NCBI GenBank assembly: GCA_947165435.1
Contig: CAMVAI010000028.1
Span: forward strand, 1 to 38,322
Reading direction: 5' to 3'
DNA from: an uncultured Prevotella sp.
GTDB lineage: Bacteria; Bacteroidota; Bacteroidia; Bacteroidales; Bacteroidaceae
DNA: 38,322 nucleotides
Below the pieces are notes generated by a model. It did no database searches. It saw only the letters and a list, made by a program, of their open reading frames with translations, and was not told the DNA's origin. How positions within the stretch are numbered: the first letter of the stretch is position 1; every line of letters begins with the position of its first letter. Both the position numbers and the translations under genes were made by a program. Below are positions 9,146 to 26,335 of the stretch, in pieces.

Positions 9146-9901
9146 TCAACGGTTATCCATTACGGAAAAAACACATGCCGAAACATTGTCATAGCCACCG
9201 GCCTCGATGGCGGCTTCGCACAGCTTGTTAGCAGATGCCTGCCGGTTCAGCAATTCCTGGATGGCAGCGTCGGAAATCATATCGCTCAGTCCGTCGGAAC
9301 ATAACAGATAGGTGTCGCCGGGCAGAAAGTCGGCAGTAAACTCCTCCATGTCTATGTAAGAGTTCTTGCAACCCGCACCGATACAGTTGGTAATGACATT
9401 CGAGTGTTTCGCCTGCCCTGTCATCGTGTTCAGCGAGTGGTCAGTGGTCAGTTGAACCAGCTGCTTGTCGCGTAAGCGATAGAGACGACTGTCGCCGCAA
9501 TTCAGCCAGTAATACTTGCCTCCATAATAGACAACCCCCACCAGCGTGGTGCCCATTTCAGCCATCGAGGGATTCACATGCCCTTTCGATGCCATGACCT
9601 TGTTGATGGAGCTTAGCCATTCGACTATCATTTCATGAAAGTCGCCCGATGAGAGTACTGCCGGCAAGTCGCTGATGAAGAACTTCAGATTCGACAGTGC
9701 TTCCTCGCTGGCCACCTCGCCGGCATTATGGCCTCCCATACCGTCGGCTAAGGCTATGACGAAACGGTCCGTATTCTCTGTCATGAACTCCGTCTTGTAG
9801 GCCTCGCTGCGTATAAGTCGGTCATAGGCCAGTATCATGTCCTCGTTATTATCCCTTACACATCCTACACGGCTTGCCGCCGTTACAGTGATTCTACTCA
9901 T
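9146..9901 (-). CDS. PP2C family protein Ser/Thr phosphatase
   Basis: This 251-residue single-domain enzyme has the complete bacterial PP2C (Stp/PrpC type) metal-binding set: RDNNED (16-21), ADGMGGHNAGEVAS (52-65), GTTL (117-120), CGDSRLYRL (135-143), SDGLSD (202-207) and GGYDNVS (235-241). It should be a soluble Mn/Mg-dependent phosphatase for phospho-Ser/Thr. It is the last gene of the kinase operon, 54 bp after the FHA gene. By analogy with other kinase/PP2C pairs, it most likely reverses the action of the kinase encoded upstream. I saw no promoter box in the 54-bp gap. Confidence 0.95.
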   Translation of the reverse strand: MSRITVTAASRVGCVRDNNEDMILAYDRLIRSEAYKTEFMTENTDRFVIALADGMGGHNAGEVASEEALSNLKFFISDLPAVLSSGDFHEMIVEWLSSINKVMASKGHVNPSMAEMGTTLVGVVYYGGKYYWLNCGDSRLYRLRDKQLVQLTTDHSLNTMTGQAKHSNVITNCIGAGCKNSYIDMEEFTADFLPGDTYLLCSDGLSDMISDAAIQELLNRQASANKLCEAAIEAGGYDNVSACVFSVMDNR

Positions 9902-9955
9902 TTCTTTGTATTATATTATATATTGTGTTTTTTTAGTTCACAAACATCATGTCTG

Positions 9956-10540
9956 TCAGCTGATGCTCACCTGTAGGCTGATATTAGCAAGTGTCACGAT
10001 GTCACCGCTCTTGATAGACATGGGAACATCGGGCAAGACGTCACGCTGATTGAGCTTGGTGCCGTTAGAAGAGTGCTTATCAACAATACACCACCCTGTG
10101 TCAGGCTTATACAGCAGCTGTGCATGTACGCCAGAAACGAACATGTTGCCTTCGAAGAACTTCTGGTAAGGCCCTTGACGTCGCCCGATGACGGCACCAT
10201 TGATACCCTGCAGGCGGATGTCTAAAGAGGGATTGTAGAGTGTCAGTGACGGCAATCCCTTCGGCATCACCGACTGCTGCAGTGGCTCGCTGGCACGCAT
10301 CGACGAACCGAACGGCAGCACAGAGGCCGTCATCGGCATATCTGCCACAGAAGGCTGCTTGGGGGCATGCTGTTTCTCCAGATATTCGTCAGGACTAATC
10401 ATCAGGGCACCGCAATGTGTACAGCGGCGTCCCATTCCGACACGCCCACAGCTGCTACAATATACTAATGCCTGTCCGCATTGGTCGCAGTAATGGGAAT
10501 CGTCTTCTATATCTTCTTTACACTTCGGGCAAATTATCAT
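9956..10540 (-). CDS. Double zinc ribbon plus FHA domain protein
   Basis: The protein has 194 residues. Two zinc ribbons lie at the N-terminus (CxxC pairs at 4/7 with 18/21 and 28/31 with 40/43). A flexible linker covers about 48-95, and an FHA domain fills 98-194 with the phosphothreonine-binding residues in place: GRR at 119-121, SGVH at 136-139 and SSNGTKLN at 157-164. FHA domains read phosphothreonine, so this should be the reader for the kinase in the same operon. The ribbons may dock it to a partner. The start overlaps the stop of the AAA+ gene by 4 bp, pointing to coupled translation and a working complex with that ATPase. Confidence 0.95.
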   Translation of the reverse strand: MIICPKCKEDIEDDSHYCDQCGQALVYCSSCGRVGMGRRCTHCGALMISPDEYLEKQHAPKQPSVADMPMTASVLPFGSSMRASEPLQQSVMPKGLPSLTLYNPSLDIRLQGINGAVIGRRQGPYQKFFEGNMFVSGVHAQLLYKPDTGWCIVDKHSSNGTKLNQRDVLPDVPMSIKSGDIVTLANISLQVSIS

Positions 10541-13500
10541 ATCGTTTCTTTAATATCTTCTGGCATAATCAATTGATAAGTCTCCTGAGTCACCTCGCTG
10601 GGCGACATTTCGCTGACACGTACCGACAGTTGCTGAATGGTAGCATCGAGCATGTTGCGCATTTCTCGGGCATTGCCAAACGACTCGTTCTTGGTAACCA
10701 CCTTGCGGCAGATGAGGTCCATGAGTTTGAATTCGGCCTCGGACGACAGCTTGTAATTATCCTTGGCAGCCATTTTCTTGAAGATGGCCAGCAGCTCGTC
10801 TTCGTTGTAGTCGTCGATGTGCATCTTGTGGGTGAAACGGCTCGCAAGCCCCGGGTTGACGGCAAGGAATGTTTCCATCTCGTCCTTATATCCGGCGGCT
10901 ATCACCACAAATTTGCCACGATCGTCCTCCATGCGCTTCATCAGGGTGTCGATGGCTTCCTTACCATACTGGTCGTTCTCAGACGACAGCGTGTAGGCCT
11001 CGTCGATAAACAGAATGCCACCCATGGCCTTGTCGCACATGTTGTTGACAATCTTCGGTGTCTCACCCATGTACTTGCCCACCAGTGTGGCACGGCTGGC
11101 TTCGATGACCCGGCTCGTGGGAAGAATCTCCATCGCCTGTAATATCTCACCCATCTTACGGGCCACACTGGTTTTACCCGTACCGGGATTGCCGGTGAGG
11201 ATAAAGTTCATAGACAGTTGTTGCACCTTGCCAGCACCCATAGCCGCACGCTGTTTCATGAACATGCTCTGTACTGCCAGACGGCGAATCATATTCTTCA
11301 CCGAGCGCATACCGATGAACTCGTCCAGTTCGTTCAGCACCTCGTCGAGCGGACGGGCCTGTTCGCTCTGGGCCATCGGCAGGTCGGCAGACGTGATGCG
11401 ATACATGTCGTCTTCATTGAAGTCGGGATTACCCATCATGCTTACCAGACGTTGACTTTGCTTCTCGACTGCCTGATCGAAGATACGTCGCGCCTCACGG
11501 GCATTGCCGAAGTTCTTGTCGCGGCGTAGGTAGAGCTGTTCGAACTGGCGATGGATGGCTCCTTGCGTCTCCTCGTCAACAGTAAAGTTCTTTCCTTTGG
11601 CCAGATTGATAAATATCTGCGTCAGCTCGTCGGGAGTATAGTCCTCGAAATGGATGGTCTGCGTGAAACGGCTCTTCAGTCCCGGATTGGTATCGATGAA
11701 GTCGTGCATCTGGTCGGTATATCCCGCCACAATACAGATGAACTTGCCACGATCATCCTCCAGACGCTTCAGCAGCGTGTCGATGGCTTCGGCACCAAAC
11801 GAGTCTTGGTCGTTCGATTTCAGGGTGTATGCCTCGTCGATGAACAGCACACCACCCATTGCCGAGTCTATGAGCTGGTTGGTCTTGATGGCAGTCTGAC
11901 CCGAGTATCCTGCCACCAGCTTCGAACGGTCTGCTTCCACCAGCTGTCCGCGAGACAGGATGCCAAGTGTACGGAACACATCGGCCATGATGCGTGCGAC
12001 GGTTGTCTTGCCCGTACCGGGATTACCCGTAAAAACGTAGTGCTTGCCCTGGAATGTATTGGTTTCTCCACGGCGAATCTGCAGATTGAGGAAGGCTGCC
12101 AGGTTGGAAATCTCCTTCTTGACGGCAGCAAGGCCCACCATGCCGTTGAGCTTAGCCAGGCACTCGGTATAATCGACTGCCTTGGGAGCCTCGTAGGGTA
12201 TGTCGGCAGCCTCTATCGTCATCAGCACGTCGTTCGACAACTGTGAGATGTCACCCTTCTGCAGACGCTCGGCCTGCTTAGAGCAAATCTTGTCGAAGAG
12301 CTGGCGCATGGTGCGTCCGTTGGCAAAGTCTTTCTCGCGGGAGTTGTACAGCTCGGTAATCATCTTCCGCGTAAGCTCCTCGGCTGCTGCCGAGAACCGA
12401 TACTTCTTCTGCTTGGCAAACACACCCATGATCTGATAGAGCTGGTCGGGGGTGTAGTCGTCGATATTGAGGAAGTAGCTGAAGCGGCTTCTGAAGCCGA
12501 CATTGATGCGGAAGAGGTTTTCCATCTCTGTGCGGTAGCCTGCGGCAATAACCACAAACTTGCCCCGGTCGTCTTCCATGCGTTTCATCAGCTGTTCCAG
12601 AGCCTGCGCACCTTGGTTGTCGCGCTCTCCGCTCTGACTTAGTGGAGCCAGTGTGTAAGCCTCATCGACAAACAAGATGCCGCCCATGGCCTTGTCGCAG
12701 AGACGGTCCACCACCTTGGGTGTCTCGCCCTGATAGGGGCTGACCATCTTTGAACGGTCCACCTCCACGACATGTCCGCTGTCCAGATACCCGATGGATT
12801 CGAGTATTTCGCCAAGCTTGCGGGCAATCGTGGTCTTACCGGTACCCGGATTACCCGTCAGCACTATGTGTATGCCTGCCTTCTGCTGTTCGCCCAGTCC
12901 GCGTTCAGCACGCTGCACGCTGTTCTGCACCGAGTATGCGATTTCGCGTACAGCCTTCTTCACCTCGTCCATACCGATGTACTGGTCAAGATCGCTGAGA
13001 ATATCATCGAGCGAACGCTCCTCAGGCACATAGCCTCTGATGTCTTGCTCTTCTATCATCACAGCGTCTGCACCGCGACTGATGAAAGATGTGAAAATGT
13101 CCTCGGCAGTCTTGATGGCCACATGACCGAAGCCGAACGTCTCGTCCTTTACTTTCACCTGATATTGGAAGAAACGCTGCAGCTTTCGCTCTGCGGCCTC
13201 CGAATAGGCTGAGATGCCATATTTCGTGCGCAGTTCCAGCTTGCAGATGTCACACAGTTCCTGATAGCCCGGTGTGGGTAGCCGGAAGGTGTACTTGAAA
13301 CGGTTCTGCGCAGCGGGGTTGGCTGTCAGGAAATCGTCAAGGCCCTTTGGCAGACCGGCCATGATGACGATGGGGTTCTCGTCCCATTTGTCCATCTCGA
13401 CGAACAACTTGTCCAGCGGGTTCACCTGATTGGAATAGCGGTCTGGCAGCAGCTTCTGCACGTTATCGAAGAAAAGAATGCCGTCCTTGGCCTTCTTCAC

Positions 13501-13854
13501 GTTATCGTCCCACTTCTCGACAAAGCGCTGGTAGTCCACGGCATCCACCATGGTTAGCTTGGGCTTCTCTATAATCTTGTTCTGATAGAAATAATCACGA
13601 ATCACCTCTGCAAGAGCCGTCTTGCCGGTTCCCGTCTCGCCAATGATAATGGCATTCACGCTGAGGCGCACCTTCATGATGTCCTTACGCGAGTAAAGAT
13701 AGGTGTACGTATCCACAACGGTCTTCAGCTGCTGTTTCACCTCGTCCAGACCTATCATGCGGTCTAACACGTTCTGCGAAACAAGCGGCTGTCCGCACCA
13801 TTTGCAGAATTTCGCTTTCGAGCGGTTTTCTTTATGACAATGCTCACATAACAT
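10537..13854 (-). CDS. Zinc-ribbon protein with four CbxX/CfqX-type AAA+ modules
   Basis: The protein has 1105 residues. One zinc ribbon (C3, C6, C17, C20) leads into four AAA+ modules at about 30-280, 285-555, 560-825 and 835-1100. Walker A motifs lie at 72-79 (GETGTGKT), 334-341, 610-617 and 888-895 (each GNPGTGKT). Walker B reads LFVDEA or LFIDEA in modules 2-4 (near 394, 670 and 948), but module 1 has ILFFDNV, with Asn for the catalytic Glu. Modules 2-4 belong to the CbxX/CfqX/SpoVK group, relatives of the rubisco activase CbbX and of EccA of type VII secretion. Such ATPases remodel protein partners. One chain with four modules is unusual, since the common forms have one or two. It lies 2 bp behind the kinase gene. 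Confidence 0.93.
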   Translation of the reverse strand: MLCEHCHKENRSKAKFCKWCGQPLVSQNVLDRMIGLDEVKQQLKTVVDTYTYLYSRKDIMKVRLSVNAIIIGETGTGKTALAEVIRDYFYQNKIIEKPKLTMVDAVDYQRFVEKWDDNVKKAKDGILFFDNVQKLLPDRYSNQVNPLDKLFVEMDKWDENPIVIMAGLPKGLDDFLTANPAAQNRFKYTFRLPTPGYQELCDICKLELRTKYGISAYSEAAERKLQRFFQYQVKVKDETFGFGHVAIKTAEDIFTSFISRGADAVMIEEQDIRGYVPEERSLDDILSDLDQYIGMDEVKKAVREIAYSVQNSVQRAERGLGEQQKAGIHIVLTGNPGTGKTTIARKLGEILESIGYLDSGHVVEVDRSKMVSPYQGETPKVVDRLCDKAMGGILFVDEAYTLAPLSQSGERDNQGAQALEQLMKRMEDDRGKFVVIAAGYRTEMENLFRINVGFRSRFSYFLNIDDYTPDQLYQIMGVFAKQKKYRFSAAAEELTRKMITELYNSREKDFANGRTMRQLFDKICSKQAERLQKGDISQLSNDVLMTIEAADIPYEAPKAVDYTECLAKLNGMVGLAAVKKEISNLAAFLNLQIRRGETNTFQGKHYVFTGNPGTGKTTVARIMADVFRTLGILSRGQLVEADRSKLVAGYSGQTAIKTNQLIDSAMGGVLFIDEAYTLKSNDQDSFGAEAIDTLLKRLEDDRGKFICIVAGYTDQMHDFIDTNPGLKSRFTQTIHFEDYTPDELTQIFINLAKGKNFTVDEETQGAIHRQFEQLYLRRDKNFGNAREARRIFDQAVEKQSQRLVSMMGNPDFNEDDMYRITSADLPMAQSEQARPLDEVLNELDEFIGMRSVKNMIRRLAVQSMFMKQRAAMGAGKVQQLSMNFILTGNPGTGKTSVARKMGEILQAMEILPTSRVIEASRATLVGKYMGETPKIVNNMCDKAMGGILFIDEAYTLSSENDQYGKEAIDTLMKRMEDDRGKFVVIAAGYKDEMETFLAVNPGLASRFTHKMHIDDYNEDELLAIFKKMAAKDNYKLSSEAEFKLMDLICRKVVTKNESFGNAREMRNMLDATIQQLSVRVSEMSPSEVTQETYQLIMPEDIKETI

Positions 13855-13856
13855 AC

Positions 13857-16820
13857 TTATTCCACATCCTTTTGTAACTGTTTAACAACGCTGGACGGAC
13901 TCATATGAACCTTGCCGAAGTCCGGGTTCTTGAAGTTGAGCAAACCGGGACTGAAGAGCACCATCTCCAGCACAAGCAGCCCCACCATGATGCTCCACAA
14001 GATATAGTGCATCACCGATTCGCCGCTGATGGACCGTACCTGGTTCGTCACGTCGTCAAGCATGCCGAACTTAGAGCCTTTGAACTTGACGGCTTTCTGT
14101 CTGAAGGTATAATAGAGCGGTTCCAGAAGTGTCGATTTGATGTCGTCGTCCATCACTTCGTTAATCAGCTGGTTGTCACTCTTCGTGTCGCCACGGAAGT
14201 CGGTGAGATGACATACCAACATATATAATAAGGTGAGACCAATAATGACATAGACGAACATCGAGGGATGATTGGCCAATGTGTAGCGCAGCGATAGTAC
14301 CGGAATCCATGCTGACAAGGCTCCTGCGAGTCCCCACAGACAGGAGAACACAAAACCATAGCCCCGGAAGAAAGCCCTTAGTCCGACGATGACTGCCGTC
14401 ATGCCTCCTACAGGAACTCCTATGGTGAAGGCGTGATGCTCCAGCACGTATGTTGGATTGGAGATGCCGAAGAGCACCAGCAAGACTATCCATGCCGCAC
14501 AGAGGCTATAGAACGTGATACGCCACTGGTATTCCTTGGCCTTGGCACGACGATAGCCCCTGCGCACCTCCTGATACTTCTGGGCTGTCTCGCGCTTGGC
14601 ATTGCCATAGCGTTTGAAGTAAAGTTGGTTCTGGTCTATCTCGCCCAAATTCATAATCCACTCCTCCAATTTCCGCTCGTAACTGTATGTCTCGCTGAAG
14701 TCCTGGTTCGGGTCTTCATGATAGAATACCGACATCCATTGTGCCAGCGACCCACGCTTCATGGCAGCAAGCAGCAGCGGGCGGTTGGCCTCCCTGTCGA
14801 AATTGACACCGTCGGTCAGCGTCGTACCGTCTTCCAGAACATAGACCGGGGTGACACCCAGAATCCGGCAGAAGCGATAGGCTGCCGTACGCAGGTCGTA
14901 GGCTCCCAAGCGCTCGCGGTTCTCCTCACTCTTCAGGTCGAAGCAGGCACGCGCCTGGTTAATCTGTTCAAACCACCCGTGCAACTGTGCAAAGTAGAAA
15001 AAGCGTCCGTCAGGGTTCATATAGTCCTGCATCTGTTCGGCAAACTCCTGGTCGTTCAGCGACTGCCACTTCTTCAACTCCTCGCGATACACCTCGCCAA
15101 CCTTCTGTGGTGTGTCAGAGTGCCGCAAATCGTAGGCCGCATCGCGATCGATGTTGTAGAGAACCTTATAGCCCAGCGACCTGGAGGGCTTCTGCCCGTT
15201 GGTCATGATGCGCAACGCCTCGCAGGCCATCTTGTCCTCATGGCTGTACATCCACGACAAGAGCCTGCCGTCGCACAGACTGTTCCAGTCATCTTCGGTC
15301 AATTCCTCGTAGCCAAAGGCATGCACGATGTCTGCAAGTGTCGATGACTGGTATTTTGCCAGAAACGGTATCTCGGGGTCTATCTCGAAAGCCGTCCGCA
15401 ACAGTGCCAGGCGGTTTTCTATCTTGTTTTCGCCGCTGAAGTAACTGCGCAGCCTGTCCACGTCCGCCTTCGAGTGTGACTCTAAATACAGGAACAGCGT
15501 GTCGTTAGGATTGGCCAGTGCCATGGCATACTCATCCTGATAGCTGAGTACGGAGATGGCGATGCTGTGAATGTCGTCGCACACGTTGCCCCGAAGGTCG
15601 CGGTAGGGGTAAGTAGGCTCCATGACATATACCGACGACATCAGGCCGGCTTTCTGGTCAACGGGATACTTGTTCACCACGATATCTTTCAGTGCCGAAC
15701 TCAGCTTTACATTGCCGCATTGTTCTAGCCATCCAGCTATACGTCCGTTGTACAGATAGCTGATAGCCAAACGCTCGTTTTCCAGCAGCATGGGAATGAG
15801 TTCATGTACGTTGTCTGCCACGAGGTTCCGTTCCGGGTCAACCACAAAACTGCGATATTTCAAGATAGGCGACGAGATGTCCACATCGACATCCTCGCCC
15901 AGGAACCACCGCTCCACCTCTTCATAGCCCCATCGGCTCTGTGGATTGACGGCTGTCAGTCCCTGTATAATCATCTTCACACGATCCGGCAGCTCGTTGA
16001 TGCGCGGCAGGCGACCCTCATTCTTCTTACGCATCATCACACGTTCGTTCTGGCTCAGCGGATTCTCGCCTAACCAGAGCGTCATCAGCGTGATGCCCAG
16101 AGAGTAGAAATCTACTGCCGGGGTGATTTCCACCTCGCCGTCAATCACGTCGTTATACATCTCCGGAGCCGCATAGACCGGCGTCCGAGCCTGCGTGGTA
16201 CGGTGTAAGCGTCCTTCGCCCTCCATCACACTGGATATGCCGAAGTCTCCCAATACCAACTGCTTATGGTCTTCGTCGCGGAAAAAGTAATTGCTCGGCT
16301 TGATGTCCTTGTGAATGATATTGTTATTATGACAGTATGCCAAGGCGGCAGCACCCTGAAGGGCAATGCGCCGGAACTGGTTGAAATTGTCGTCCAAGTC
16401 GTAATCGGCCAGCGTGCCCCCCCTCAGGTATTCCATCAACTCGTAGTCGCGGTTCTTGCCGTCCACGTATGTCTTGCCGTAGTCGGTCACCTTCACCACC
16501 ATTTCCATGTTGAAGTTCTGTATGATGCGCATCAGCGTCTTCTTGATGGTGAAATTGGGGTAGTACACCTTCAGCACGCACTGCCCTTCGTCGCCCTCCA
16601 CCAGAAAGACCTGAGCCTCGCCGGAATTGTCGCTGAGGCACTTGATGCCTCTATACGGCCTACCCTTCAAGATAAAGTCGGCTACGCTGCTACTCGCTGC
16701 TAAGCCGGAACTGTCGGGGCGTACAGTAACCTCTGTCGAGGGAGCTGCCTTGGCCTGCGGGGCATCAACCCTTACCGTCTTACCTGTGTCTGCCACTTGG
16801 GGCTTGATGGTTTGGTCCAT
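13857..16820 (-). CDS. Membrane-anchored Ser/Thr protein kinase
   Basis: The protein has 987 residues. A Hanks-type kinase domain lies at about 55-310: Lys84 (CVLKVYY), catalytic HKDIKPSN (170-177), GDFGIS (191-196) and AAPE (217-220). HKD replaces HRD, and the glycine loop is reduced to SDNSGEAQVFLV. A region of about 450 residues with no domain I can name follows. About five membrane helices (near 767-787, 796-816, 820-846, 852-873 and 936-957) close the protein, with a long soluble stretch (874-935) between the last two. The kinase domain should be cytosolic. Its spacing is 5 bp to the zinc-ribbon gene and 2 bp to the AAA+ gene. Likely substrates are its operon partners, although no target can be read from sequence. 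Confidence 0.94.
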   Translation of the reverse strand: MDQTIKPQVADTGKTVRVDAPQAKAAPSTEVTVRPDSSGLAASSSVADFILKGRPYRGIKCLSDNSGEAQVFLVEGDEGQCVLKVYYPNFTIKKTLMRIIQNFNMEMVVKVTDYGKTYVDGKNRDYELMEYLRGGTLADYDLDDNFNQFRRIALQGAAALAYCHNNNIIHKDIKPSNYFFRDEDHKQLVLGDFGISSVMEGEGRLHRTTQARTPVYAAPEMYNDVIDGEVEITPAVDFYSLGITLMTLWLGENPLSQNERVMMRKKNEGRLPRINELPDRVKMIIQGLTAVNPQSRWGYEEVERWFLGEDVDVDISSPILKYRSFVVDPERNLVADNVHELIPMLLENERLAISYLYNGRIAGWLEQCGNVKLSSALKDIVVNKYPVDQKAGLMSSVYVMEPTYPYRDLRGNVCDDIHSIAISVLSYQDEYAMALANPNDTLFLYLESHSKADVDRLRSYFSGENKIENRLALLRTAFEIDPEIPFLAKYQSSTLADIVHAFGYEELTEDDWNSLCDGRLLSWMYSHEDKMACEALRIMTNGQKPSRSLGYKVLYNIDRDAAYDLRHSDTPQKVGEVYREELKKWQSLNDQEFAEQMQDYMNPDGRFFYFAQLHGWFEQINQARACFDLKSEENRERLGAYDLRTAAYRFCRILGVTPVYVLEDGTTLTDGVNFDREANRPLLLAAMKRGSLAQWMSVFYHEDPNQDFSETYSYERKLEEWIMNLGEIDQNQLYFKRYGNAKRETAQKYQEVRRGYRRAKAKEYQWRITFYSLCAAWIVLLVLFGISNPTYVLEHHAFTIGVPVGGMTAVIVGLRAFFRGYGFVFSCLWGLAGALSAWIPVLSLRYTLANHPSMFVYVIIGLTLLYMLVCHLTDFRGDTKSDNQLINEVMDDDIKSTLLEPLYYTFRQKAVKFKGSKFGMLDDVTNQVRSISGESVMHYILWSIMVGLLVLEMVLFSPGLLNFKNPDFGKVHMSPSSVVKQLQKDVE

Positions 16821-16825
16821 AATGT

Positions 16826-17761
16826 CTATTTGTCGTCTTTTATTTCTGCAGAATTATTCTTTCCTAAAACAATCCACTTGCCTCCCAGATGTGGCTTGGC
16901 GCACCCGCAGGGACTGCTGTGCATGGCGTGCTTGAAGTTGCACACCCATGCCAGACGTACCCCGGCTGGCTTGCTGGCCATGGCAAAGTTGCGGGCCTTT
17001 ACCGGCGACGGCATAGGGGGTACTGCCAATTTGTCGAGGATGGCCGACAGCATTTTCAGCTTGATGGCCTTCTGTTCGTCCAGCTCCTCCTTGGTCATGC
17101 GCTTCGACTCGATTTTCGGGATGACGGGATATTCCACGCCCTCGTCCTTGGCCAGCAGTGTCAGCACGCGCTCGCGGAGCTTCGAATTCATCTGTTCCTT
17201 GACGATGTCACGTTCCGAGTTATAGGGCAGTGCATTCTCCAGCTTGGAGAAGTCTTGTACGATTTCCAGAAGTTCCTGGTATTCGGGATTCTTGTGCAGC
17301 TCTTTCACCATCATCTTGGCTTCCTCCGTCAGCGCCGTGCCGCATTGCTTGCAGAAGGCGAAGTCGTTCAGCGTATGGCATGTAGGGCATACCAGTCCGC
17401 CTCGCGGGCTGCCGCACTCCGGGCAGTAGGCTTCATTGCCCGAGAGGTGAGCACCGCAATAGGAGCACACGTCCTTCTTGATATAGTGATGGCATGTCTC
17501 GCAAAAGTCAGCATCCACATCTACCTCTGCACCGCAGTAGGGGCATGTAGCCTGGCTGATGGGCTGTCCGCATTGTGCGCAGAACATGGCCTCCGGGTCA
17601 TTGACCGCTCCGCAGTATGGGCATTTCTTGCCTGCTGCCTGGCTATAGGCTACCTGTGGCTGCTGCTGTTGCTGGTAGTTGTCGCGTGCTTTCTCTAATG
17701 TCTTTTGCGGACGTACCGTTCGCTGTGTTGTCTCTCCAAATGAGGTAAAATCACTGTTCAT
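16826..17761 (-). CDS. Four-zinc-ribbon protein of the kinase operon
   Basis: This 311-residue protein begins with a Thr-containing, Gln-rich tail (about 1-45; TSFGETTQRT could hold phosphosites). Four zinc ribbons follow, with CxxC pairs at 47/50 and 61/64, 73/76 and 87/90, 99/102 and 113/116, and 125/128 and 137/140. A helical segment lies at 145-245, and the C-terminal part contains another Cys/His group (C274, H278, H281, C285, C287). It has no signal peptide or membrane helix. I do not recognise a named function. As the first gene behind the operon promoter it may be an adaptor or scaffold, and its N-terminal threonines could be docking sites for the FHA protein. That is inference from context only. 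Confidence 0.9.
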   Translation of the reverse strand: MNSDFTSFGETTQRTVRPQKTLEKARDNYQQQQQPQVAYSQAAGKKCPYCGAVNDPEAMFCAQCGQPISQATCPYCGAEVDVDADFCETCHHYIKKDVCSYCGAHLSGNEAYCPECGSPRGGLVCPTCHTLNDFAFCKQCGTALTEEAKMMVKELHKNPEYQELLEIVQDFSKLENALPYNSERDIVKEQMNSKLRERVLTLLAKDEGVEYPVIPKIESKRMTKEELDEQKAIKLKMLSAILDKLAVPPMPSPVKARNFAMASKPAGVRLAWVCNFKHAMHSSPCGCAKPHLGGKWIVLGKNNSAEIKDDK

Positions 17762-17788
17762 TTTTCAGTAGGTTGTAATAGACAGTTG

Positions 17789-17821
17789 CAAAGTTAGTGT
17801 TTTTTTTTGGAATATGACAAA
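17789..17821 (-). promoter_or_regulatory. Promoter of the kinase/AAA+/FHA/PP2C operon
   Basis: On the minus strand, TTTG (17821-17818) and TAACTTTG (17796-17789) are separated by 21 bases, a good match to the Bacteroidota consensus. The leader would be about 24 nt. It is the only consensus promoter I found in the gaps of the minus-strand block from 17761 down to 3559. Confidence 0.8.
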
Positions 17822-17825
17822 TAAA

Positions 17826-17851
17826 CCGCCGTAAATTTACATTTACGACGG
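17826..17851 (-). terminator. Hairpin between the M13 peptidase gene and the kinase operon
   Basis: Ten-base arms (17826-17835 and 17842-17851) pair with one mismatch around a TTTACA loop. On the minus strand a T-rich stretch follows. It would end transcripts of the M13 gene directly before the -33 box of the kinase operon. Confidence 0.55.
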
Positions 17852-17878
17852 CATTTTTTATGTTAAATGTTTGTAAAA

Positions 17879-22652: not shown

Positions 22653-23888
22653 ATGATGAGGCATTTTTTCATAGCGAAGAGCAGCGTTTTGCTGCTGTGT
22701 TGCGCCCTTGCCGCCGTCTGCTATGGCGGCAATCGGGTGTATTCTTCCCGCATCCACTCACTGACCAGCATTGTCAACGGCGACTGGCTGAACCGCCCTG
22801 TCATGCTCTTGGGCAGCGGCGACAGGATGGAGATAGGATTCGACGAACTGTCGCACGACTACCACCGCTTCGTCTATCGGCTGGAGCACTGCGAGGCAGA
22901 CTGGAGCGTCTCCGAGGAGCTGTTCGAGAGTGACTGGTTAGAGGGCTTCAACGGCAACCCTATTGACGACTATCAGAACTCCATCAACACCACCGTGCTC
23001 TACACCCACTATCGGCTGACCATTCCCAACGACCGGTGCCACCTGAAGATGAGCGGCAACTACCGGCTGACCGTCTATGACGAGGACAACGACAACGAGC
23101 GCATGCTGGAGGTGGAGTTTTATGTCGTTGCCCCCATGATGGATATCGGGCTGCAGGCCACCACCAATACCGACATCGACCACAACGTGAGCCATCAGCA
23201 GGTAAGCATGAGCCTACAATTTAATAATGTACGCGTGACGAACACCACCGACCAGCTCTATACCGTGGTGATGCAGAACTGGCGCGAAGACAATGCCCGC
23301 AACAACCTGCGCCCCACGTTCGTCAGCAACAAAGGGCTGGCATGGGAGCACAACCGACAACTCATCTTCGATGCCGGCAACGAGTATCACAAGTTCGAGG
23401 TGCTTGACGTGAGCCATGCCACCATGGGGCTGGACAAGATAGAATGGGACGGTCACCACTATCAGGCCTATCCCTTCACCGCCGTTGTGCGCCGCAACTA
23501 CCTGACGGATGTTGATGCCGACGGAGCCTTCTGCATCCGCAACAGCGAATATACCGAAATCGACTACACCTGCGACTACGTCTATGTGAACTACGCACTA
23601 CAGGTTCCCTTTCAGGGCGACATCTATCTGCAGGGGCATTGGACAGACCGCGCAGACCGCGATACCTACCGCATGCAGTACGACCCGCAACACGGCATCT
23701 ACCATACCCGGCTGTTGCAGAAACAGGGCTATTACTCCTACCAGTTTCTTACTGCCGACGGGAAAGTTCCGCCTTCGGAAGGCAGCTTCTACCAAACGGA
23801 GAATACTTACCAGGCCTTTGTCTATTGGCGGGGCGACGGGGGCCGAACTTGGCAGCTGTTGGGCTACCGGGCTATCTCGTTGCGGTAG
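22653..23888 (+). CDS. Type IX secretion plug-family protein (DUF5103)
   Basis: This 411-residue protein has a signal peptide of about 25 residues and then the DUF5103 pattern: FVYRLEHCEADWSVSEEL near 68-90, a GFNGNPIDDYQNSINTTV segment and YTHYRLTIPN near 109-118. An Ig-like middle and a beta-rich C-terminal domain follow. The family includes Plug, shown in Flavobacterium johnsoniae to close the periplasmic side of the SprA translocon channel of type IX secretion. Members also occur in Bacteroidota without a gliding or full T9SS phenotype, so the role here is probable rather than certain. No other T9SS gene is in the window. The 3' end overlaps the convergent AraC-type gene by 25 bp. A second ATG three bases downstream is an equally good start. 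Confidence 0.88.
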   Translation: MMRHFFIAKSSVLLLCCALAAVCYGGNRVYSSRIHSLTSIVNGDWLNRPVMLLGSGDRMEIGFDELSHDYHRFVYRLEHCEADWSVSEELFESDWLEGFNGNPIDDYQNSINTTVLYTHYRLTIPNDRCHLKMSGNYRLTVYDEDNDNERMLEVEFYVVAPMMDIGLQATTNTDIDHNVSHQQVSMSLQFNNVRVTNTTDQLYTVVMQNWREDNARNNLRPTFVSNKGLAWEHNRQLIFDAGNEYHKFEVLDVSHATMGLDKIEWDGHHYQAYPFTAVVRRNYLTDVDADGAFCIRNSEYTEIDYTCDYVYVNYALQVPFQGDIYLQGHWTDRADRDTYRMQYDPQHGIYHTRLLQKQGYYSYQFLTADGKVPPSEGSFYQTENTYQAFVYWRGDGGRTWQLLGYRAISLR

Positions 23889-26335
23889 TCGGCAGGCGTG
23901 CGGCGATAGTGATGGTAAAAGCTGGCTATCAAGAAATTGGGCGACGCAAAGCCTAAGTCGGAAGCAATATCTTCCACTTTCTTGTCGGTAGTCAGCAGCT
24001 GTTCAGCAGCTTTGTGCAGACGGATGCGGAGGGTCAGCAGCCTCGGACTCTTATAGGTGTTGGCAGCTATGAGTTCTGCCAGTTCCGTGGGGCGCTTCCC
24101 CGTGACATGGGCCAGCCGTTCCAGCGTGAGGCTGTCGGCAGTGGCCTTATTCTCGAAGAGCGGATACACGTGCATGATGAAGTCTTGGAAGTCGCGGCTG
24201 AGCTTGCCTTCCACGCCGGCTTGTTCTTCCGAGAAGTCCTGATAGGACGGTGCCAGCACGTCGGACGAGAATCCCACGCAACGGTTGACGAATGTGCGCA
24301 GCCGCCGCATGACGCGTTCCTCCTCGTTGGTGCAGAAGGCCTTCAGGCGTGTGTTCCTGTTGTAGAAGAAGACGTTCGTCAGCAGCAGTGCCAACAGCAG
24401 CAGGGCCACCGAGAGGTGTACTCCCGTGGTGCGCCACCACGGCTCCTCGACGTAGATGGTCCACGTCAGCGGCTCGACGGGCCATTCGAAGGGCAGCGTC
24501 GATACCTGCATCTCCACCACATACCTGCCGGGGCGCAGTCCCGACAGAGGCAGATTCAGCATTCCCTGCCGGTCCACCTGGCCATTTGAATTGCTGTGCG
24601 ACAGCACCTTCCACTTGTCGCTCAATCCTACCACACGGTAGCGGTAGTAGGTCTGTATGGGCCGTGTATAGTTCAGTCCGGTGAAAGTGAGCAGCATCGA
24701 GTTCTGGTTGTAGTTCACCCTCAGCTCCCTGGCTCGCGTGATGGCGCGGTCTAGTATCACCCGTCCGTCCACGGTGTCGCCCGCCCCTATCACTTCGCCA
24801 GCAATCATCAGCCTCACCAGTTTCGGGTAGAGCCGTTGGTCCAACTTGCCCAACAGCCGGAAGTTGGCGGGATTGAAGGCCACTACATGGTCGAGCGACT
24901 GCATGACGATAGTGCCGTCGTCGAGCTTGACAGCCTTTCCGTTGACAAACGACTCCTCCGGCACGTTGTCGTGCTCAGCGTAGGTCTCTATCTGGCTGAT
25001 GCTGTCGTTGCGTATCAGGAAGAGCGAGATGCCGAAACTGGTGGCTGCCCAGATATTGTGGTTGTCGTCTTCTATCACACTGTGTATCATCTCGTTCAGC
25101 ATGCCGTCGCGGCGCGTATAGGTGTGGTGCGTCTTTCCTTTGTCTCGGCTCACTTGCAGCCCGCTGTACGTGCCCGTCCATATCCACCCCCGGCTGTCGG
25201 TGATGCGGCAGTTGACGTGGCGGGGCAACGGCTTCGACTCAGGCATCAGGCGGTCCATCTCTGTGGCCAGCCGGACGGCTTCGGGCTGGTTCCATGCATA
25301 GGAGTTGAAGGGCACCTTGAAGGGCTTCGAGTAGAACAGCCCGCGCTGCTCGGTGCCTACCCACATGCCTCCCTGTCGGTCGAAGGCGATGGTGTTGACA
25401 TCGGTTTCAAGCTGTCTGCCGTGAGTTAGTCCCAGCTTATTCTGGTGTACAGCGTGACCGGTGGCCAGGTCGTATATCCAGTAGCCGTACTCGCAGGCCA
25501 GATAGAGGCTGTTCTGGTTGATGGCCATGTTGTTCAGATGATAGTCGAGGCGCATGAGTGTCTCCCAACGGCGGCTCTTCATGTCGAAGCAGAGCAGTAC
25601 AGACTGCTTGTCGCCGTTGCGAATCTGGAAGAAACGGTCTTGGTACTGATAGACCACCGACGAATTGGTATAGCGGGCCGCCTCCGTCTCGTCAAGGGCG
25701 CGCACGTCGTACAGGTGGCGGCTGGTCTTCATGTCGTAGGCCGACACCACGCTGTTGGCAAAGAACTGCAGGTGTACGGTACTGTCATAGACGGCAACGT
25801 CCTGCAGCTCGGCCTGCTGGCCGACGGGCATCTCCCTGCCCTGCTCAATGCCCTTTAGCTTCGTGCCGGAGAGGAACCACAGGTGGCAGTCTTCGTCGGC
25901 AAAGAGGTCATCCACGGGCTTATCCATGCCGAGGGAGCGTATCACGCCACCTACATCTTTAATAAAGCGCTCCTGTAGCAGATCCACACAGGTCACCGTA
26001 TTCTTGTCTTTCAGCCAGAGGTGGTGGTGCTTGTCAAAGTACAGGCGGTAGTGGCCCGTATATTTAGGCAGGGGGAAGATGTTTTCGACGGTGGGGTCGA
26101 TATGGGTAAAGAAGGCTCCGTCGTAGAAGTTGATGTGGCCGATGGTGGATATGACCATACGTCCCGTCTTGGTGCATTTGATGACCTGTGCGCTGTTGTC
26201 GGCCAGTCCGTTCGAGGCATTGAACATAAAGAACACCCGATCGCTCTGTGCATGCACCATACTGGCAACCAGCACGGCAAGCAGGACTGCCGCGAGGCAG
26301 CGCAGGTTCTGGGTTATGGTGGGGTTTCCTGTCAT
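23864..26335 (-). CDS. Membrane-spanning Reg_prop/Y_Y_Y sensor with AraC DNA-binding domain
   Basis: The protein has 823 residues: signal peptide (about 1-29), beta-propeller-like sensor repeats (about 35-490, with Reg_prop-type units such as MWVGTEQRGLF and GWIWTGTYSGL), a Y_Y_Y-type beta domain (505-630), one membrane helix (637-658) and a C-terminal AraC helix-turn-helix (about 740-823, with IASDLGFASPNFLIASFYHHY). It is laid out like the hybrid two-component sensors of Bacteroidales, but the histidine kinase and receiver domains are absent. Binding outside would therefore act directly on a membrane-tethered DNA-binding domain. The neighbour is a plug-family gene, not a polysaccharide locus, so the ligand is unknown. 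Confidence 0.92.
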   Translation of the reverse strand: MTGNPTITQNLRCLAAVLLAVLVASMVHAQSDRVFFMFNASNGLADNSAQVIKCTKTGRMVISTIGHINFYDGAFFTHIDPTVENIFPLPKYTGHYRLYFDKHHHLWLKDKNTVTCVDLLQERFIKDVGGVIRSLGMDKPVDDLFADEDCHLWFLSGTKLKGIEQGREMPVGQQAELQDVAVYDSTVHLQFFANSVVSAYDMKTSRHLYDVRALDETEAARYTNSSVVYQYQDRFFQIRNGDKQSVLLCFDMKSRRWETLMRLDYHLNNMAINQNSLYLACEYGYWIYDLATGHAVHQNKLGLTHGRQLETDVNTIAFDRQGGMWVGTEQRGLFYSKPFKVPFNSYAWNQPEAVRLATEMDRLMPESKPLPRHVNCRITDSRGWIWTGTYSGLQVSRDKGKTHHTYTRRDGMLNEMIHSVIEDDNHNIWAATSFGISLFLIRNDSISQIETYAEHDNVPEESFVNGKAVKLDDGTIVMQSLDHVVAFNPANFRLLGKLDQRLYPKLVRLMIAGEVIGAGDTVDGRVILDRAITRARELRVNYNQNSMLLTFTGLNYTRPIQTYYRYRVVGLSDKWKVLSHSNSNGQVDRQGMLNLPLSGLRPGRYVVEMQVSTLPFEWPVEPLTWTIYVEEPWWRTTGVHLSVALLLLALLLTNVFFYNRNTRLKAFCTNEEERVMRRLRTFVNRCVGFSSDVLAPSYQDFSEEQAGVEGKLSRDFQDFIMHVYPLFENKATADSLTLERLAHVTGKRPTELAELIAANTYKSPRLLTLRIRLHKAAEQLLTTDKKVEDIASDLGFASPNFLIASFYHHYRRTPADYRNEIAR

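Follow-up and report, generated by a model that had tools for sequence, protein, structure and literature searches.

The stretch of DNA analyzed here (the window; 38,322 nucleotides of contig CAMVAI010000028.1, from an uncultured Prevotella sp.) carries a block of five genes that encode a zinc-ribbon protein, a kinase, an AAA+ protein, an FHA protein and a PP2C phosphatase, and that are considered here as a candidate phosphothreonine signaling unit. All five genes are open on the minus strand between positions 9146 and 17761, with intergenic gaps of exactly 5, 2, -4 and 54 bp; an initial annotation of the window had given the same strand and the same gaps, which proved exact on re-reading, and the names it assigned to the gene products agree with Pfam. 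Gene 1 (16826..17761, minus strand, 311 aa) encodes the zinc-ribbon protein, which comprises a disordered N-tail, three double-zinc-ribbon stretches (Pfam), helices, and a conserved C-terminal W-x-C-N...H...C...P...GG-x-W segment. Gene 2 (13857..16820, minus strand, 987 aa) encodes a Hanks-type kinase (Pfam Pkinase), and gene 3 (10537..13854, minus strand, 1105 aa) an AAA+ protein with an N-terminal zinc ribbon followed by four SpoVK/CbbX/EccA-like modules. Gene 4 (9956..10540, minus strand, 194 aa) encodes the FHA reader, with an N-terminal double zinc ribbon (Pfam) and an FHA domain at about 9989-10192, and gene 5 (9146..9901, minus strand, 251 aa) the phosphatase (Pfam PP2C), in which the metal-site motifs are kept. 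Zinc ribbons are thus common to three of the five proteins (those of genes 1, 3 and 4). Across the Prevotella-type set used for comparison (80 loci, the best among 217 confirmed matches to named genomes, with titles Prevotella, Prevotellaceae or Bacteroidales) the kinase motifs are kept in 78 loci, the FHA motifs in 78, and all five PP2C motifs in 74.

The initial annotation also placed a single consensus promoter ahead of the block. As a sigma-70 promoter it did not hold, since a scan of the minus strand ahead of gene 1 gave no match; what was taken instead is a promoter-like TTTG-N21-TAACTTTG element at 17789..17821 (minus strand, found by pattern search), 27 bp before the gene 1 ATG, which is of the Bacteroidetes type. 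Matches to this pattern number 5 across the window (0.14 expected). A terminator-like hairpin (17825..17852, minus strand) stands behind the upstream M13 peptidase gene and sets that gene apart from the block. The sole minus-strand sigma-70-like match between block genes (TTGTGA-17-TATAAT, 9915-9943) falls in the 54-bp gap between the FHA and PP2C genes and may be a separate start for PP2C, or a chance match; the sigma-70 scan returned 15 sites where 8.6 are expected, so that single sites carry little weight.

The kinase appears to be built of four parts. The AlphaFold2 model has pLDDT under 50 for residues 1-45, followed by the kinase domain, a helical middle and C-terminal helices. The disordered N-tail (residues 1-47; 16680..16820, minus strand) contains the candidate phosphothreonines T4, T15 and T32 (in TIK, TVR and TVR), and the kinase domain (residues about 48-310; 15891..16679, minus strand) has K84, HKDIKPSN and DFG. 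The helical middle region (residues about 325-700; 14721..15848, minus strand) matches no Pfam family at E 0.01; in structure searches with the kinase model, the matches listed (best 50 of 1921; residues 45-310) correspond to the kinase domain. Five predicted membrane helices lie within residues 768-957 (13950..14519, minus strand), as judged from hydropathy together with the predicted helices. By hydropathy, each of 16 kinases has membrane-like helices close to its C-terminus, five in 10 of them (the window's included) and four in 6, in contrast to PknG of Actinobacteria, which is not known to have a membrane region; five helices would put the C-terminus outside, and four would put it inside. 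The kinase is thus predicted to be membrane-bound. In some relatives its C-terminal end carries a further domain: SH3_3 in the L141 kinase (L numbers denote loci and P numbers related proteins), with PF08239 of the same family listed for P0169, and PG_binding_1 at the end of the more distant kinase P0132.

The kinase N-tails are studded with a threonine motif, T-[IVLFMQ]-[RK], often found in tandem as [DE]KT[IVLM]RP. The tails of distant kinases hold arrays of their own, with DKTLKP repeats in L140, DKTVRA in L150, SGTQRP in L141 and DKTIVA in L086. In the 16 aligned kinases the motif occurs 44 times in the tails where shuffling predicts 3.9, and 13 of the 16 tails are positive; the remainder of the same proteins holds 32 against 27 expected. 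Because the motif was picked after the first tails had been viewed, a second set of kinases was fetched by the middle region only. Its 25 non-redundant tails contain 90 motifs against 8.0 expected (the largest of 2000 shuffles gave 19), with at least one copy in 20 tails and at least two in 17. Before this count 19 of the 71 second-set kinases were dropped, as no kinase start was recognized in them by pattern; one of these has the motif in seven copies, TATAP- or TAVAP-type threonine repeats take its place in 15, and three have neither. When repeats of all kinds are considered over 40 non-redundant tails, a threonine-containing four-letter word is repeated at least three times in 20, against 0.015 expected. 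Within the Prevotella-type set every one of the 74 scored tails has at least one copy, and 72 have at least two (6 of 80 not scored); a first tally over 79 tails with a narrower motif had found one to four copies in 69 and none in 2, the other 8 being left unscored. Among 206 other mechanically called open reading frames of at least 200 aa in the fetched stretches, taken as a control, two motifs within the first 80 residues occur in 2 and three motifs in none. Kinases of another, shorter branch (P0176-P0191, 652 to 924 aa) have N-tails made up mostly of QGTATAP repeats.

The same words recur in the partner proteins. The N-tail of the window's zinc-ribbon protein contains TTQRTVRP (residues 11-18; 17708..17731, minus strand); among aligned zinc-ribbon N-tails the motif occurs 8 times against 1.35 expected, all within 4 of 15 sequences, and Prevotella-type N-tails have it in 52 of 79 (35 of 71 in the first tally with the narrower motif). 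FHA linkers contain 5 motifs against 1.26 expected, in 5 of 13 sequences, a number reached by 6 of 2000 shuffles. In all five blocks found outside the window's class (L149, L150, L152, L153 and L183, described below) the FHA protein itself ends in T[IV]R[VIL], the C-termini being EKTIRV, DKTVRI, EKTVRI, DKTIRL and DATVRV. When these endings are compared with the kinase tail of the same genome (a comparison that covers the four loci other than L153), the last six letters recur in L150 (DKTVRI) and L183 (DATVRV), and the first five letters of the ending recur in L149 (EKTIR) and L152 (EKTVR). In four other-class genomes (G316, G507, G462 and G362; the search did not extend to G312, which holds L153) the FHA domain of the block is the only FHA match; if the words are read by an FHA domain at all, the reader is therefore likely to be the FHA protein of the block. 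We infer that the motif threonines would be phosphorylated by the block kinase and then bound by the block FHA domain.

Threonine-rich tails could instead be neutral low-complexity repeats that drift in length and have no role as ligands. The repeat words do differ between lineages, copy number varies, and some tails are without the main motif, which speaks for such drift; against it stand the presence of the same words in zinc-ribbon N-tails and above all at the FHA C-termini of the other-class blocks, and non-repetitive tails, such as that of the window, that still hold three copies. Neutral drift is regarded as very improbable.

Conservation of the block was evaluated first in the Prevotella-type set. 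All five genes are present in 79 of the 80 loci, the exception (L077) beginning inside the kinase gene at a contig edge, and all but one of these 79 preserve order and strand (thus 78 of 80 whole and in order), the kinase frame being split in L007. The gene for homoserine O-succinyltransferase (HTS) follows the block in 77 of 80 loci, and the other three are contig ends; upstream, where an M13 peptidase or ABC-F gene was sought as nearest neighbor, an M13 peptidase was found in 72 of 79 loci, ABC-F in 4 of 79, and neither in 3 of 79. As these flanks are mostly those of the window, the constant order could reflect shared descent at one site, and farther relatives were therefore examined. When genomes were searched with the AAA+ protein at E 1e-100, matches were found in 23 of 247 genomes of the order, 14 of 395 of the phylum and 15 of 201 of the family (the window's own counted each time), and neighborhoods were read for the window's own genome and for 6 of 22 other order, 8 of 13 other phylum and 9 of 14 other family genomes, the remainder having short flanks only. 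Many of these matches are stand-alone AAA proteins outside any block. Seven such loci in other Bacteroidota (L142, L151 and L154-L158) encode SpoVK/CbbX-like proteins of 795 to 1308 aa with no kinase or FHA neighbors, and were left out of the block counts.

Five genes in order were found in 13 of 16 further blocks (L140, L141, L143, L144, L145, L147, L148, L149, L150, L152, L159, L181 and L183). L147 had at one point been a candidate for a three-gene remnant, which was ruled out when tblastn located its FHA and PP2C genes in order; L153 is incomplete, its contig starting at the AAA+ gene. Five blocks fall outside the window's class, four of them whole. The L152 kinase equals P0128, named Melioribacteraceae, in length, L149 and L153 belong to the same family group, and for L150 and L183 the nearest named relative is P0125 of Ignavibacteriaceae; going by these names, the other-class carriers would be Ignavibacteria. 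Unlike the order of the block, the flanking genes vary between distant carrier groups. Over 12 blocks the pairwise distances of the five proteins are correlated, with Mantel r of 0.50-0.86 (0.85 for AAA+ versus kinase, 0.86 for AAA+ versus FHA). Taken together, the order kept across groups, the differing flanks and the correlated protein distances show that the block behaves as one unit. The initial annotation had asked whether the five genes stay together in relatives, and in the blocks read they are not scattered, with flanks that differ in distant carriers.

The unit is also present or absent as such. Among 12 same-family genomes with no AAA+ match, an HTS gene was found in 11, and 10 of these sites were read. 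In six (L171, L172, L173, L176, L178 and L180) the site is empty, with HTS directly after the M13 peptidase gene at a distance of about 20 to 400 bp; in the remaining four, other genes lie in between or the M13 gene is out of view. The block thus comes and goes as a whole at the M13-HTS site. This patchy presence, with its empty sites, speaks for an accessory anti-phage defense system, with the kinase as sensor of infection and the AAA+ protein as effector, and PADLOC kinase and ATPase models do match the kinase and AAA domains. PADLOC recognizes no system among the five proteins, however; its listed matches are confined to the kinase domain and the AAA modules, three of the five proteins having no match at E 0.01 (the scan covered the five proteins). 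The block moreover occupies one site in the Prevotella-type loci (HTS as above; M13 peptidase or ABC-F in 76 of 79) and not a defense island, and the kinase has no match at E 1e-20 in 72,556 plasmid records. A defense role is judged improbable.

Several neighboring genes were recorded along with the blocks. In two other-class genomes SUKH-type (SMI1_KNR4) genes lie within or just after the block (L149:4288-5082 and L152:10445-10966), that of L149 being an extra insertion after gene 1 and before gene 2, while the L140 block is followed by a DUF1963 gene (L140:12930-13574); these may be immunity-like companions, or may be there by chance. In genome G685, the contig with the block also carries another cluster that has several FHA domains and additional kinases (G685:C47:26186-32636), and in G237 similar genes lie on contigs C22 and C75, not on that of the block.

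The AAA+ protein contains, by Pfam, four AAA and three AAA_lid_6 stretches, and it scores above the NCBIfam cut-offs for EccA and SpoVK, although the score sums four modules and each model covers just one, with a length of 261-284 positions. In module 1 (about residues 40-280; 13015..13737, minus strand) the protein has an intact P-loop, GETGTGKT, and a Walker B sequence, FFDN, without the catalytic glutamate, and modules 2-4 (10540..12984, minus strand) have GNPGTGKT and DE. The distinction is constant: Walker B of module 1 is DN in 80 of 80 Prevotella-type loci and that of modules 2-4 is DE in all, and in 13 more distant block members the module 1 glutamate is also gone, the pair of residues reading mostly DN and otherwise EN, DS, SD or DD; in L147 the P-loop of module 1 is itself altered. 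These sequences suggest that module 1 binds nucleotide and likely does not hydrolyze it, and thus that it could serve as a fixed or sensing part. Most chains have four modules, but L159 has three, L149, L150 and L152 have five, and L153 has six. A motor that lines up three to six CbbX-like modules in a single chain, the first of them likely dead, is unusual. The N-terminal zinc-ribbon pattern C-x2-C...C-x2-C is found in 80 of 80 Prevotella-type loci and in the 13 more distant block members whose N-termini were read.

The zinc-ribbon protein likewise has a conserved segment of its own at the C-terminus (R257 to about residue 298; 16868..16993, minus strand), in which W, C, H, C, P, GG and W are invariant in 15 sequences and which has no Pfam match at E 0.01; its invariant C274, H281 and C287 are likely to be metal-binding. 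The model of the whole protein has no match in the PDB at E 0.001 or better, and weak structural matches to NZF/RanBP zinc fingers were not used.

Whether this motor belongs to the signaling pathway can be weighed against an account in which the block is an envelope-stress pathway of the PrkC/PknB kind, with the FHA and zinc-ribbon proteins as ordinary substrates and the AAA+ protein as a co-transcribed but independent chaperone. The predicted membrane location of the kinase fits this account, as do the SH3_3 or PG_binding_1 C-termini of some related kinases and the resemblance of the window's PP2C to the Stp1/IreP family (162.8 bits, below the 230-bit cut-off), and nothing yet links the AAA+ protein to the phosphorylation signal. 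Unlike PASTA kinases (PrkC/PknB), however, the window kinase has no PASTA repeats, only kinase families being listed by Pfam at E 0.01; and against an independent chaperone stands that the AAA+ gene sits in the middle of the block and that its protein has the high Mantel correlations with kinase and FHA given above and shares the zinc-ribbon theme. This account is considered unlikely, although it is the alternative to which most weight is given.

The combination of kinase, PP2C and FHA genes is also that of the type VI PpkA/PppA/Fha system, where they supply writer, eraser and reader, so that the block might be the regulatory arm of a secretion machine, either of type VI or of type VII with EccA, the structural genes being located elsewhere. 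The EccA score would agree with the second form, with the reservation that four modules add up in it. The AAA+ protein of the block is nonetheless SpoVK/CbbX-like and not ClpV, the ATPase that serves type VI secretion. TssC (PF05943) was found in 0 of 17 carrier genomes, by a search whose control was positive in E. coli only, so that its sensitivity in Bacteroidota is unshown, and Pfam lists no type VI or type VII gene among ten neighbors in the window and ten of distant blocks (type VII was not searched genome-wide). A secretion arm is thus the least probable of the alternatives considered. In the type VI threonine phosphorylation pathway Fha binds a phosphothreonine of TssL (PMC3953482). For Ter/TerY-P systems, which combine a kinase and a phosphatase with a vWA protein, TerD was found in 0 of 17 carriers, and no vWA protein is listed for the five genes of the block or ten other window genes (for the AAA+ protein, among the best 25 of 70 families). 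On the tests made, the block belongs neither to the type VI pathway nor to the Ter systems. Some 5 kb from the block, the window contains a type 9 secretion plug-like gene (22653-23888, plus strand) that overlaps tail to tail by 25 bp with a hybrid regulator-like gene (HTH_18, Reg_prop; 23864-26335, minus strand).

The closest functional parallel appears to be the PknG-GarA/OdhI system of Actinobacteria, in which autophosphorylation sites on the disordered N-tail of PknG anchor the FHA protein GarA (PMC8546545). Like PknG in that account, the block kinase has a disordered N-tail with candidate threonine sites and a helical domain behind the kinase domain; PknG, however, carries TPRs and in most cases a rubredoxin domain. 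The block also differs from PknG-GarA in that its tail is often a tandem array, in the zinc ribbons of its FHA protein, and in including an AAA+ protein. The tail words are likely, from their sequence and distribution, to be a PknG/GarA-like docking array read by the FHA protein. Two other gene sets resemble the block in part. An archaeal calcineurin-like phosphatase operon likewise places a zinc ribbon-FHA protein beside a protein phosphatase gene, but with another phosphatase fold and a vWA protein, and the passage that describes it names neither a kinase nor an AAA+ protein (PMC7016017). GTPase-centered conflict systems (PMC7159879) have, beside a PP2C gene, a kinase that frequently carries a zinc ribbon or membrane helices; they are actinobacterial and include a GTPase and a vWA protein, neither of which is among the five genes here. 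With the SpoVK/CbbX/EccA family the block AAA+ protein shares AAA and AAA_lid_6 and scores above the NCBIfam cut-offs; it departs from that family in that its single chain holds four modules (relatives have three to six), and in having an N-terminal zinc ribbon and a module 1 lacking the Walker B glutamate. By sequence, then, the block would work most like PknG/GarA at the docking step, with a motor of the SpoVK/CbbX family in an unusual one-chain build.

These comparisons bear out what the initial annotation had said of kinship to CbbX/EccA and of the lack of VWA and type VI/VII secretion genes (the latter among the ten window neighbors scanned with Pfam). To its account are added here the predicted membrane location of the kinase, the zinc ribbons of the FHA and AAA+ proteins, the absence of the Walker B glutamate from AAA module 1, and the threonine motif of the kinase tails. 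It had also raised the question whether the set is already described within a named system, and literature searches returned no paper describing the five genes together, among those listed and with subscription papers mostly out of reach.

On balance we hold it probable, by a modest measure, that the five genes constitute one self-contained switch consisting of a membrane kinase, a tail array, FHA docking, an AAA+ motor and a PP2C reset. The predicted membrane kinase would add phosphates to a series of threonines in its disordered tail; the phosphorylated tail would then be the docking place of the FHA protein, the docked complex would likely set the large AAA+ remodeling ATPase to work at the membrane, and the PP2C phosphatase would reset the switch. 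The signal would arrive from the cell envelope through the C-terminal membrane region of the kinase, the zinc ribbons may hold the FHA, AAA+ and zinc-ribbon proteins together, and the AAA+ protein, with module 1 and two to five canonical modules in one chain, would remodel a client. A self-contained switch with phosphorylation recruiting the FHA protein to control the ATPase, for stress, envelope or defense purposes, had already been proposed in the initial annotation. Its self-containment is supported by a module order kept across families and into another class with changing flanks, and the recruitment step by the threonine motif arrays; control of the ATPase by the FHA protein is a step that we infer. 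Of the three purposes, a signal from the envelope is favored by the predicted membrane kinase and by the wall-binding C-terminal domains of some relatives, defense has patchy presence and generic domain matches to recommend it, and nothing specific to stress was found.

Several observations weigh against such a switch. Nothing in the sequence places the FHA protein in contact with the ATPase. The motif was defined after the first tails had been seen, and the 25 test tails include at least three (P0121, P0128 and P0133) that are the same as, or nearly identical to, tails of the first set. The form T[IVL][RK] is absent from 5 of the 16 aligned kinase tails (L143-L146 and L159) and the wider motif from 3 of 16, and another kinase branch carries the QGTATAP repeats in place of T[IVLFMQ][RK]. 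In the partners the motif is limited to 4 of 15 aligned zinc-ribbon N-tails (52 of 79 of the Prevotella type) and 5 of 13 FHA linkers, and the T[IV]R[VIL] ending occurs in 0 of 9 aligned FHA proteins outside the other class. The four-helix kinases (6 of 16) would have their C-terminus inside, L146 and L182 have no detectable PP2C in the stretch fetched, and carriers are a minority of each genome sample (order, phylum and family).

A more specific form of the switch is put forward as a tentative possibility. In this form, which would be a signaling machine of a new kind in bacteria, the kinase would span the envelope and write a multivalent phosphothreonine array on its own tail, an FHA-zinc-ribbon adaptor would count the marks, the count would gate a single-chain, multi-module AAA+ motor whose hydrolysis-dead first module is a sensor, and reader and array would co-evolve word by word across lineages.

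The ligands of FHA domains are seldom visible in sequence, and here the likely ligand seems to be a repeated word common to the kinase and its partners. Five genes could thus suffice to test the writer, the reader, the eraser and a candidate output of one pathway, in a block that, by the names of its relatives, spans from rumen Prevotella to Ignavibacteria; and the control of this unusual AAA+ motor could be studied directly.

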